Shown here piece by piece: positions 29,227 through 48,969 of a DNA stretch of 64,000 bases. The first letter of the stretch is position 1, and every line of letters begins with the position of its first letter. Source of the stretch: Clostridia bacterium (lineage in GTDB: Bacteria; Bacillota; Clostridia; Oscillospirales; CAG-272). Where the stretch lies: the NCBI GenBank assembly GCA_017472285.1, contig JAFUQQ010000006.1, positions 1-64,000 of the forward strand, read 5' to 3'. The notes beneath the pieces are model-generated. The model searched no databases, had not been told where the DNA came from, and was given only the letters and a program-made list of their open reading frames with translations. Made by a program: the position numbers and the translations under genes.

Positions 29227-31152
29227 TTACGCCTCAATCTCATTCAATTCATTCATCCAGATAGTCGACATCGCATCACTAGGCATTTTCCAATCGCCTC
29301 TCGGAGAGAGTGCGACAGAACCGACCTTGGGCGCATCAGGTGTGCAAGAACGTTTGAATTGCTGTGTAAAGAAGCGGCTATAAAATTTCTTCTGCCATTT
29401 GAGAATGGTTTCACCGTCAAATTCGCCTTCAAATGCTTTTTTGGCAAGGCGGAACAATTTCTTGGGAGGATAAGCGTTACGGATGGTATAATAGAGGAAG
29501 AAGTCATGGAGATCGTAAGGACCGACGATATCTTCCGTAATCTGCGCGATCTGACCGTCTTTTGCGGGCAACAATTCGGGGCTGACGGGTGTATCAAGGA
29601 TATCGAGCAGACATTTTTTTGCATCGCCGTCCATGATATTTGCAAAATGCTCGACGAGGAAACGCACGAGTGTTTTCGGAACATCGGCATTGACACCGTA
29701 CATGGACATATGGTCGCCGTTATACGTTGCCCAACCGAGTGCAACTTCGGAAAGGTCGCCCGTACCGACGACAAGACCGCTCGTCTGGTTAGCAATATCC
29801 ATAATGACCTGTGTACGTTCGCGTGCCTGTGCGTTTTCGAACGTAACGTCATGGTTGGTTTCATCGTGGTCGATATCTTCAAAATGGACGGAAACGGCGC
29901 GTTTGATATCTACGGTACGAACCGTTGCGCCGAGTGCCTCGGAAAGCATAACGGCATTGCTCTTGGTGCGGACAGTCGTACCGAAGCAAGGCATGGTCAC
30001 GGCAATGATATCTTTTCTGTCGCGTCCGAGCAAGTCCATTGCACGAGCGGCGATTAGGAGAGCAAGCGTGGAATCCAGACCGCCGGAAATACCGATGACG
30101 GCAGTTTTTGCCCATGAATGAGCGATTCTCTTTTTCAGACCGTGCGCCTGAATATTGATAATGGTTTCCGCGCGTTCCGCATATTCATTTTTATCTGTGG
30201 GGAGGAAAGGACGTTTCGGGAGTCTCGGTGTTTCGGTTTCATGGAATTGAAATTTTACGATATCCCAAGCGTATTCAACAAATCTTTGATTGCCGTTATG
30301 AACCGCAGGATAGGTATTTTTCTTTGCACGCATATCCGCAAGAGAGACCACGTCGATAACAGCGGTCTGCATACCTTCGTCAAAAGGTTTTCTTTCGGAA
30401 AGGATGTGGCCGTTTTCGGCAATGATGCTATGACCTGCGAAAACACCGTCCGTTGTGGATTCCGCACTTCCCGCGTTGGCATAGATATAAGCCGCATGGA
30501 GCTTTGCGGACTGTGAAGATACAAGTGCGCGTCTTTTTGCCGCTCTGCCGACAATTTCCGCATTGGCGGAAAGATTAACGATGATCGTTGCACCTGCTTT
30601 TGCAAGAGCCGTGGACGGAGATTCCGGCACCCAAAGATCCTCACCGAGTTCGCAACCGATCGCAAATTCCGGCTTTTCCACATCCAAACCAAAGAGAATT
30701 TTATTGCCGAAATGCACCCATTTGCCGCCGAGACAGATCACGTCCTCCTGCGTGGGCACGGAGAACCAACGCATTTCATAATTTTCGCCGTAGTTTGCGA
30801 GATTCTTTTTCGGAACGACACCGATGAACTGTCCGTCAAACATGACGACCGCGCAATCGTAGATTTTACCCTGATGGCGAATGGGCGCGCCGACGAACGT
30901 CAGCATATTTTTACCTTCGGTCGCTTCCGCGATCTTTTCGAGAGCCATCATTGCCGCATCGATCAGCATTCTGTGTCCGAAAAGGTCGCCACAGGTATAA
31001 CCCGTCACACAAAGCTCGGGGAAAACGAGAAGAGCTGTGTTTTCCTTTGCCGCGTTTTCAATGGCAAGAATGATCTGCTCTGCATTATAGACCGTATCTG
31101 CCACGCGAAGCTCGGGCGTTGCTGTTGCAACCTTGAGAAATCCATCTTTCAT
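29227..31152 (-). CDS. nadE: NAD synthetase with glutaminase domain, 641 aa
   Basis: The N-terminal half is a carbon-nitrogen hydrolase domain (about residues 10-290) with the catalytic glutamate in FPELCVTGYTCGDLF and the lysine in VPKKNLANYGENYE. The C-terminal half is the synthetase, with the ATP loop GISGGLDSTLALL and GTGDLSEVALGW. It makes NAD from deamido-NAD, ATP and glutamine-derived ammonia. The nucleophile motif, normally E-[ILV]-C-E-D-L-W, reads GCELGEDLWVP, so glycine sits where cysteine is expected. The domain may therefore not hydrolyse glutamine, and the enzyme would use free ammonia. Start at 31152, with AAAGGA upstream; the ATG at 31164 has no room for a ribosome site. Confidence 0.9.
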   Translation of the reverse strand: MKDGFLKVATATPELRVADTVYNAEQIILAIENAAKENTALLVFPELCVTGYTCGDLFGHRMLIDAAMMALEKIAEATEGKNMLTFVGAPIRHQGKIYDCAVVMFDGQFIGVVPKKNLANYGENYEMRWFSVPTQEDVICLGGKWVHFGNKILFGLDVEKPEFAIGCELGEDLWVPESPSTALAKAGATIIVNLSANAEIVGRAAKRRALVSSQSAKLHAAYIYANAGSAESTTDGVFAGHSIIAENGHILSERKPFDEGMQTAVIDVVSLADMRAKKNTYPAVHNGNQRFVEYAWDIVKFQFHETETPRLPKRPFLPTDKNEYAERAETIINIQAHGLKKRIAHSWAKTAVIGISGGLDSTLALLIAARAMDLLGRDRKDIIAVTMPCFGTTVRTKSNAVMLSEALGATVRTVDIKRAVSVHFEDIDHDETNHDVTFENAQARERTQVIMDIANQTSGLVVGTGDLSEVALGWATYNGDHMSMYGVNADVPKTLVRFLVEHFANIMDGDAKKCLLDILDTPVSPELLPAKDGQIAQITEDIVGPYDLHDFFLYYTIRNAYPPKKLFRLAKKAFEGEFDGETILKWQKKFYSRFFTQQFKRSCTPDAPKVGSVALSPRGDWKMPSDAMSTIWMNELNEIEA

Positions 31153-31274
31153 ATTTAAATCCATCCTTTCAGAAATTCCGAGGTCTTTTTGATATTATAA
31201 ATACATTTTACGCCTACTGACTGTAAAAAGCAAGAAAATATTTGAATTTTTTCAGATAAATTTACAAATTCTTA

Positions 31275-46929: not shown

Positions 46930-48588
46930 TTATTCCGAAAGCATTCTGTTGATCGCGCTGACTAGTGCCTTGACGGAGGAGAATACGATATCGCTGTCGA
47001 TACCTGCACCCCAGGATGTACCCTTTGCGTTCTTGATGGAAACGTAGGAAGCCGCACGGGAAGTCGAACCGTCGCTGAGGGCGTGTTCTGAATAAGTGTC
47101 GAGCGTATAGCATTTGCCGATCACAGAAATGATCGCGCCGGAAACCGCGTCCAAACTACCGTTACCAATGGAAGACACGGTATAAGGCTGACCGTTCCAT
47201 CTCATGAGAACTTCCGCAACGGTGATGCCGTTTTCCTTACGGAAATGCACTTCTCTGACAGCAAGCTTACCTTCGATATTGACGTAATTATCCATAAAGA
47301 TATCATAAACTTCTGCGGGAGAAAGCTCCTTGTGTGCGTGGTCGGAAACGCTCTTGACGTGATAACCGAACACTTCGCGCATCTTGGGAGGCAGAACGAG
47401 AGAATATTTGGTTTCAAGCAGATAACCGATACCGCCCTTACCCGACTGGGAGTTGATACGGATAACGTCCGCTTCATAAACACGACCGAGGTCGGTGGGG
47501 TCAATGGGGAGATAGGGGACGTTCCAGATACCGTTGCCCTTTGTTTCGCGGTAGTGCATACCTTTCGCGATAGCGTCCTGGTGAGAACCGCTGAACGCCG
47601 CGAAGACGAGCGCGCCGCTATACGGCTGACGTTCATAAACGTGCATACGGGTTACTTTTTCGTAAGTCGCGCAAATTTCGGGCATATTGGAGAAATCAAG
47701 CTCAGGATCGATACCCTGAGAATACATATTGAGCGCAAGCGTAATGATATCGACGTTACCCGTGCGTTCACCGTTACCGAAAAGCGTACCTTCGATACGG
47801 TCGCCGCCCGCAAGAAGTCCCATTTCGCTATCCGCAACGGCACAGCCGCGGTCATTATGCGGATGGAGAGAAATGATGAGATTTTCTCTGTTGTGGAGAT
47901 GGTTGCACATATATTCAACCTGATTTGCGTAAACATGAGGCATGGAGTGGGAAACGGTTACGGGAAGATTGATGATGACCTTGTCCTCTGCTGTGGGCTG
48001 CCAGATATCGATGACTTCGTTACAGATCTCTGCGGCAAATTCGGGCTCTGTACCTGTAAAGCTTTCGGGAGAATATTCAAAGGTGAAATGACCGGGAGTC
48101 TTTTCGCGGTACTGCTTGCAGAGGTTTGCGCCGAATTTCGCGATCTCAATGATTTCTTCCTTGGATTTTTTGAAAACCTGTTCACGCTGTGCCACAGAGG
48201 TGGAATTATAAAGATGAACGACAGCGTGTTTTGCGCCGCGGAGCGCTTCAAAAGTCTTGGCGATGATATGTTCACGGGACTGTGTGAGTACCTGAATGGT
48301 AACGTCATCGGGGATCATATCGTTTTCAATGAGTGTGCGGCAGAATTCATATTCCGTTTCGCTTGCCGCCGGGAAACCGATTTCGATTTCCTTGAAACCT
48401 ACTTTGACGAGAAGTTTGAAAAATTCAAGTTTTTCTTCCAGGCTCATCGGAATGATGAGTGCCTGATTGCCGTCACGGAGGTCAACGCTGCACCAGATCG
48501 GTGCTTTTTCAAGATGTGTTTTTTTCATCCATTCCCCGTTTGATTCTACGGGGAAAAACTGTTTGGTATATTTCTGATAACCGTTCAT
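46930..48588 (-). CDS. leuA: 2-isopropylmalate synthase (long LeuA type), 552 aa
   Basis: Condenses acetyl-CoA with 2-ketoisovalerate, the first committed step to leucine. The catalytic barrel shows CSVDLRDGNQALIIPMSLEE with the metal aspartate, SLHPHNDRGCAVADSE with the metal histidines, and GNGERTGNVDIITLALN. The C-terminal regulatory domain, which binds leucine, is present (about 430-552) with IGNGSLDAVSGAI. Length and motifs are those of the long type known from actinobacteria and many Clostridia. Start at 48588, after AAGGA. Expression is controlled by the T-box leader upstream. Confidence 0.95.
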   Translation of the reverse strand: MNGYQKYTKQFFPVESNGEWMKKTHLEKAPIWCSVDLRDGNQALIIPMSLEEKLEFFKLLVKVGFKEIEIGFPAASETEYEFCRTLIENDMIPDDVTIQVLTQSREHIIAKTFEALRGAKHAVVHLYNSTSVAQREQVFKKSKEEIIEIAKFGANLCKQYREKTPGHFTFEYSPESFTGTEPEFAAEICNEVIDIWQPTAEDKVIINLPVTVSHSMPHVYANQVEYMCNHLHNRENLIISLHPHNDRGCAVADSEMGLLAGGDRIEGTLFGNGERTGNVDIITLALNMYSQGIDPELDFSNMPEICATYEKVTRMHVYERQPYSGALVFAAFSGSHQDAIAKGMHYRETKGNGIWNVPYLPIDPTDLGRVYEADVIRINSQSGKGGIGYLLETKYSLVLPPKMREVFGYHVKSVSDHAHKELSPAEVYDIFMDNYVNIEGKLAVREVHFRKENGITVAEVLMRWNGQPYTVSSIGNGSLDAVSGAIISVIGKCYTLDTYSEHALSDGSTSRAASYVSIKNAKGTSWGAGIDSDIVFSSVKALVSAINRMLSE

Positions 48589-48674
48589 AGCAAAATCCTT
48601 TCCTGCTATCTTATATTTTACGAGTACAAAAAGTTTCGGCAATGCGAAACGCAGAGAAACGAGTCTATAAGAAC

Positions 48675-48925
48675 AAAAAATCTCTTTTGCAGACAGGGGT
48701 ATTCCCCATGCAAAAGAGACGAAGTTACATCATAACCCGCGGTACCACTCTTTTTTGATAACAAAGCCGTTATCCACTCTGCCCATGTCGCATTCAACAC
48801 AGTCACTCTGTAACGGGAGGAACCCGTTTCCGCCTACTCGAAAGTCTTTCGCCGAAACTGCTCAGGGGAGGAGTTATTCATCAAAACCGCCGCTGTCTTA
48901 CACCAACCGACAGCTCTCTGTGAGG
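48675..48925 (-). promoter_or_regulatory. T-box leader (leucine) of the leu operon
   Basis: On the minus strand: stem I begins with AGAGAGCTGTCGGTTGGTG (near 48920), the T-box sequence AGAGTGGTACCGCGGGTTAT lies at 48732-48751, and a terminator TCTCTTTTGCA...TGCAAAAGAGA with a T-run lies near 48682-48722. In the expected specifier loop, CTC at 48871-48873 is a leucine codon, matching the genes downstream. Uncharged tRNA-Leu would prevent termination. Confidence 0.92.
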
Positions 48926-48969
48926 CATTTTTGAAGTTTGTTTCCCCTTCAAACGCATTTAGTAAGAAC

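Follow-up and report, generated by a model that had tools for sequence, protein, structure and literature searches.

Loss of the glutaminase nucleophile from a two-domain NAD(+) synthetase suggests a shift towards ammonia in a family of Clostridia

A two-domain NAD(+) synthetase (NadE) from a Clostridia bacterium of the Oscillospirales family CAG-272 carries glycine at the position of the cysteine on which glutamine hydrolysis depends. From sequence comparisons, we consider it very probable that this protein is a working NAD(+) synthetase that does not hydrolyse glutamine and is fed by ammonia, that its nitrilase domain is non-enzymatic and that it forms part of a wider shift within the family. 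The likeliest reading is that the enzyme makes NAD from free ammonia and that its nitrilase domain has been kept as a scaffold or as an ammonia conduit.

Results

The stretch of DNA analysed here (referred to as the window) comprises 64,000 nucleotides, positions 1 to 64,000 of contig JAFUQQ010000006.1 in assembly GCA_017472285.1. It harbors nadE at 29227..31164 on the minus strand as one intact full open frame of 645 amino acids, which is also the frame with homology evidence at the site discussed below. The encoded protein belongs to the whole-protein family NCBIfam NF002730 / PRK02628, against which it scores 794 bits (cut-off 473), and Pfam recognizes CN_hydrolase at residues 12-279 (66.7 bits) and NAD_synthase at residues 339-508 (102.8 bits). 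These matches mark a nitrilase-type, formerly glutaminase, domain of approximately residues 8-279 (30328..31143, minus strand) and a synthetase (ATP-pyrophosphatase) domain of approximately residues 330-645 (29230..30177, minus strand). An AlphaFold2 model built from a 44-sequence alignment reached a mean pLDDT of 83.5 and a pTM of 0.82, and a fold search with this model returned Mycobacterium tuberculosis NadE (6OFC, TM 0.84) as the top PDB match, followed by the M. tuberculosis C176A laboratory mutant 3SEZ. Pfam, the predicted model and the fold search thus all point to the two-domain architecture in the M. tuberculosis NadE fold, and the full CN_hydrolase domain separates the protein from type N NadE, the single-domain ammonia-dependent form that has no glutaminase domain. 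Elsewhere in the window, a T-box leader (107.9 bits; 48712-48962, minus strand) lies just upstream of the gene for 2-isopropylmalate synthase (46930-48642, minus strand).

The translation of the nadE frame contains EFAIGCELGEDLWVPESPS. In a phmmer alignment, Gly174 of this frame (codon GGT; 30643..30645, minus strand) lies opposite Cys176, the catalytic cysteine of M. tuberculosis NadE (cysteine in 3DLA/3SYT and alanine in the C176A entries), and the sequences of congeners agree with this placement, bearing out the claim of an initial annotation of this DNA that the glutaminase cysteine is absent. The same annotation was right that the other two members of the triad remain: the glutamate is Glu50 (31015..31017, minus strand), kept as Glu in 69 of 72 cysteine-less enzymes, and the lysine is Lys119 (30808..30810, minus strand), kept as Lys in 61 of the 72. 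With respect to EC 6.3.5.1, the enzyme therefore has the Glu and Lys of the triad and lacks its Cys. In the model, strand 169-173 gives way to a helix at 174, which predicts an elbow that is retained without its nucleophile. Replacement mostly by glycine would be consistent with a single-base substitution in a TGY codon, and perhaps with a strained backbone at the elbow.

The glycine is shared within the genus. Of the four other two-domain NadE proteins found there, three (L085, L086 and L087) share Gly, within the frame CEIGEDL, and the fourth (L088) has Cys; in two further members, G002 (75% complete) and G005 (87% complete), only a short NadE was seen. Recurrence of the glycine in three congeners rules out a sequencing error. 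More broadly, the idea that the glycine reflects a sequencing or assembly error or a gene decaying to a pseudogene draws on the draft state of the genome, which consists of 77 contigs, and is opposed by the full open frame, the common glycine and a conserved synthetase domain; we regard its probability as negligible. It could also be argued that Cys171 (30652..30654, minus strand), which is shared by the four genus members that have Gly, is now the nucleophile and that glutamine is still hydrolysed. The initial annotation had proposed such a takeover by a cysteine two residues before the glycine; Cys171 in fact stands three residues before it, with two residues between. We rejected this candidate because its occurrence is unspecific: Cys is found at position 171 in 18/72 cysteine-less and in 27/196 cysteine-bearing sequences, and its presence alongside the real nucleophile marks it as ordinary variation. 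At every other column within 12 residues, Cys occurs in at most 5 of the 72 cysteine-less sequences, and in the model Cys171 is predicted to lie in strand 169-173, ahead of the elbow at 174. A takeover by Cys171 thus appears highly improbable.

To place the glycine in a broader context, we gathered relatives from the best 80 loci of a named genome collection and from the family and order of the window, with duplicates removed. The family sample comprises 152 two-domain NadE proteins drawn from 395 family genomes, with 34 weaker two-domain matches (E < 1e-80) left out. Rows for the window's own gene (L001, L002 and L136), L251 (387 amino acids), L026 (identical to L117) and the duplicates L252-L254 were dropped, as was L153, a near-duplicate of L160, from the domain-retention comparison onward. 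Within the family, 69 of the 152 proteins are without the cysteine, the residues at position 174 being 83 Cys, 63 Gly, 3 Ser, 1 Glu, 1 Ala and 1 Tyr. Outside it, Cys is near-universal, with 36/38 sequences from other families of the order and 78/79 named sequences (fetched best-first, which may favour Cys types), and we therefore take Cys as ancestral. Both states occur within 14 of the 42 sampled family genera; in one of these, g12, both copies come from one genome, and another, g28, has 7 Gly and 6 Cys.

A Gly subfamily, as the initial annotation had suggested looking for, does exist among relatives; on the trees made, it is not one clade and seems to have arisen many times. Parsimony on the synthetase-domain tree of family two-domain NadE requires at least 29 state changes at position 174, and 23 are required on a whole-protein tree from which residues 160-190 were removed and 22 on a 72-genome tree. 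The counts on the synthetase-domain and whole-protein trees led us to reject a single Gly clade, and the cysteine appears to have been lost independently in many relatives, although gene transfer could mimic repeated loss because the tree is that of the NadE synthetase domain and not a species tree.

We compared 196 cysteine-bearing sequences with the 72 cysteine-less ones, of which 69 belong to the family, two come from f17 and f21 (one from each) and one is the named sequence L015. Any column at or above 95% in the cysteine-bearing set was defined as conserved. Mean retention in the cysteine-less set was 97.7% over 107 synthetase columns versus 74.5% over 42 nitrilase columns (76.3% without column 174). 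The nitrilase columns lost most were C174 (0% kept), K207 (8%), W178 (11%) and P123 (18%), and E175 (24%), Y56 (28%) and S199 (35%) were also often lost. Others were retained: E50 in 96%, K119 in 85%, E235 in 100%, S236 in 99% and D239 in 94%. Of the 11 sequences that lack K119, nine retain E50, indicating that E50 is not kept merely as the partner of K119. At the C-terminal end of the synthetase domain, D624 (58% kept) and K613 (64% kept) are also slipping. In the phmmer alignment, which has a two-residue offset, the M. tuberculosis NadE counterparts of W178, N128 and E130 of the window enzyme are Phe180, Phe130 and Glu132, respectively; in the accessible text of PMC6946656, Phe180 and Phe130 are at the glutamine site and Glu132 is in a loop that stabilizes the lysine of the triad. 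At column 128, Phe occurs in 167/196 cysteine-bearing versus 5/72 cysteine-less sequences, and the window enzyme has Asn. Across cysteine-less enzymes, then, alignment indicates that the glutamine pocket decays and that the synthetase domain does not.

Divergence between close relatives gives a similar picture. For close pairs within genera, the ratio of nitrilase to synthetase divergence has a median of 2.63 where both members are cysteine-less (21 pairs) versus 1.82 where both have Cys (28 pairs; p=7.6e-6). For the nitrilase domain, omega is approximately 0.17 in cysteine-less versus approximately 0.12 in Cys-type pairs, some dS values being saturated, and the nitrilase domain of cysteine-less enzymes is still under purifying selection. 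The window enzyme itself is lightly decayed, with changes at 7 of the 59 nitrilase columns that are conserved at a 90% threshold, versus 0/59 in its Cys-type congener L088. Besides Glu50 and Lys119, it keeps Tyr56, Glu130, Glu175, Trp178 and Ser199, and glutamine may consequently still bind. Such retained pocket residues, together with a fold that is predicted to be kept and the purifying selection on the domain, would be expected if the nitrilase domain were now a sensor of glutamine or another ligand that regulates the synthetase. The pocket nevertheless decays in other cysteine-less enzymes, where Y56, E175 and W178 are mostly gone, and we consider a sensor unlikely.

We also searched for another source of NAD or of glutaminase activity. 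In the 77-contig draft of the window's genome, nadE is the only full-size NAD synthetase found; a second was sought and none was seen. The same is usual in the family: in 63 of the 69 cysteine-less genomes, drafts of which many are incomplete, such that a missing second NadE, CarA or PyrG may reflect gaps or the search's first look, we saw no strong short NadE and know of no Cys-type copy (among these 63, G207 gave a second match in the family search). Five genomes (G123, G244, G343, G369 and G414) have a strong short NadE as well, and one, G260, has a cysteine-less (L229) and a Cys-type (L243) two-domain NadE together. Since usually no other strong NAD synthetase is seen in cysteine-less genomes, their NAD synthesis most likely runs on another donor. 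As a separate observation, genome G044 has a divergent second NAD-synthetase-like gene (L251, in a 573-amino acid frame) and a two-domain NadE elsewhere.

Glutaminase activity might instead be supplied in trans by another protein, and the window's genome does encode one other nitrilase-family protein, in a 546-amino acid frame (L135, 1405-3045), with an apparent catalytic cysteine. By its motif, we take its C-terminal half to be glycerophosphodiester phosphodiesterase-like, an unusual pairing with a nitrilase-family domain. This makes the protein unlike a NadE glutaminase subunit; as it was the sole candidate for a stand-alone subunit, we rejected this possibility for the window's genome and consider supply in trans quite improbable.

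A PF00117 scan of the window's genome gave two glutamine amidotransferase (GATase) proteins. One is CarA, the carbamoyl phosphate synthetase small subunit (L282, 964-2052, on contig C69), in which the elbow reads GIGLGHQ and Gly252 stands for the GATase cysteine; in some other family genomes this cysteine is likewise changed to Gly, Ala or Ser. The other, with GICLGMQ, is presumably HisH, a name we assign from the motifs of hisC-like and hisA-like neighbours. It keeps the GATase cysteine, and glutamine is thus probably still used there. GuaA (GMP synthetase, PF00958), encoded by a 326-amino acid frame (L288, 1495-2475, on contig C54), starts at the ATP-pyrophosphatase part and has no GATase domain, and the PF00117 scan revealed no separate GATase subunit for it in this genome. 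CTP synthase (PF06418) was found in one of seven genus genomes, G001, which is the one with the Cys-type NadE, and not in G000 or G002-G006, of which G000, G003 and G004 have a completeness of 93% or more. A scan with crude motifs over 413,535 bases (20 stretches of the window's genome, the window and six other loci) gave no convincing candidate for other amidotransferases, glutamine synthetase or ammonium transport among the matches listed, up to 12 for each motif.

We then scored GuaA and CarA in 80 family genomes picked for spread over genera, namely 37 of the 69 cysteine-less, 35 Cys-type and 8 short-NadE genomes. The GuaA alignment extended across the GATase region in 3/34 scorable cysteine-less versus 22/34 scorable Cys-type genomes (Fisher p=2.6e-6, kinship ignored), a count in which GuaA on fragments (G319, G222, G123, G316 and G067) was scored as GATase-lacking and which leaves out G006, G391, G230, G108 and G002, where there was no usable match. 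CarA with its cysteine, meaning at least one copy that has it, is present in 4/20 cysteine-less versus 22/26 Cys-type genomes (Fisher p=1.6e-5, kinship ignored); CarA was not found in 17 of the chosen cysteine-less and 9 of the Cys-type genomes. The two traits also go together: 22 genomes kept both, 18 lost both, 3 kept the CarA cysteine and lost the GATase domain and none showed the reverse (Fisher p=2.2e-9, kinship ignored).

Independent pairs taken along supported branches of the NadE synthetase-domain gene tree point the same way. For GuaA and NadE, 11 pairs gave about 6 differing in the same direction, about 5 (4.9) with no GuaA difference and about 0 opposite (median p 0.03, range 0.016-0.22); for CarA and NadE, 9 pairs gave about 6, about 3 and about 0, respectively (median p 0.03, range 0.03-0.22); and for GuaA and CarA, 8 pairs gave about 7, about 1 and 0 (median p 0.016). 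Where traits differ between supported pairs, they run the same way in nearly all draws. We regard these associations among NadE, GuaA and CarA as suggestive rather than strong.

The coupling is not strict. Twelve of the 34 Cys-type genomes are already without the GuaA GATase domain, which implies that the loss in NadE may be a later one, and four Cys-type genomes (G008, G225, G023 and G108) have only cysteine-less CarA. Conversely, in G414 and G171 a cysteine-less NadE occurs alongside a CarA that has its cysteine and a GuaA that has its GATase domain; in the CarA of G171, Gln replaces the glutamate of the triad. A further exception is G260, whose genome also encodes a Cys-type NadE, and the cysteine-bearing CarA of G391 likewise counts against strict coupling. 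In G414, a single 14-kb contig (C42) carries GuaA with its GATase domain, CarA with its cysteine and the short NadE, and the cysteine-less NadE is on a different contig, C7; transfer or contamination is possible there. Unexpectedly, glutaminase loss in NadE, CarA and GuaA looks concerted, which suggests that ammonia has repeatedly taken the place of glutamine as the amide donor.

Discussion

The initial annotation had offered ammonia use and takeover by a preceding cysteine as interpretations of the missing nucleophile. Our comparisons support the former, indirectly, through the loss of the nucleophile, the decay of the pocket, the conservation of the synthetase domain, the usual lack of another strong NAD synthetase and the tendency of CarA and GuaA to lose glutaminase function. 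In such an enzyme, the C-terminal domain would adenylate deamido-NAD in the ordinary way and free ammonia drawn from the cell would attack the product, while the nitrilase domain would act as a structural partner, perhaps forming the mouth of the ammonia tunnel. Judging from the associations described above, the change in NadE may be one step of a repeatedly evolved shift in the family that also involves loss of the GATase domain from GuaA and of the catalytic cysteine from CarA, such that several amidations would run on ammonia. We also put forward, tentatively and at less than even chances, a more far-reaching proposal: that, on repeated occasions, members of the family replaced glutamine by free ammonia as the amide donor in several core reactions simultaneously, GuaA shedding its glutaminase domain and CarA and NadE their nucleophiles, and that the dead nitrilase site of NadE, with its conserved Glu50 and nearly invariant ESxxD (E235, S236 and D239), might serve as an ammonium intake port for the tunnel.

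The window enzyme shares its whole-length fold, domain order, synthetase motifs and triad Glu and Lys with type F two-domain NadE, as in M. tuberculosis, but has Gly for the catalytic Cys, so that the residue defining the glutaminase is missing. With type N NadE it shares the predicted nitrogen donor, but it belongs to the two-domain lineage. The M. tuberculosis C176A mutants (3SDB, 3SEQ, 3SEZ and 3SZG) are likewise two-domain NadE proteins without the nucleophile that still fold, although theirs is an engineered Ala and not a natural Gly. Free ammonia is, according to the accessible parts of PMC6946656 and PMC3376133, a known substrate of two-domain NAD synthetases. By analogy, cysteine-less NadE may work most like vertebrate carbamoyl phosphate synthetase CPS1, an ammonia-only enzyme that has similarly kept an inactive glutaminase-like domain after losing its Cys; in human CPS1, Ser294 replaces the catalytic cysteine and external ammonia is used (available text of PMC4655335). 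CPS1 is a different enzyme with a different glutaminase fold and, in humans, Ser in place of the mostly Gly of family NadE, and the loss in NadE seems to recur many times in bacteria. We found no description of cysteine-less two-domain NadE or of concerted glutaminase loss in the open-licence PMC literature; the glutamine synthetase loss in an ant symbiont, described in the part of PMC3017870 available to us, is a different matter.

These observations bear on annotation and on the evolution of amide donors. PMC3376133, in its accessible text, classes two-domain (type F) enzymes as glutamine-using, states that all those characterised by then use glutamine and proposes sequence motifs by which two-domain NAD synthetases can be annotated as glutamine users. 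Because 69 of 152 sampled proteins in one family are without the nucleophile, such a rule would mislabel them. The 14 of 42 sampled genera with both states offer near-matched pairs for enzymology, and the linked losses in CarA and GuaA make it testable when free ammonia suffices as an amide donor and in what order glutaminase functions are lost.
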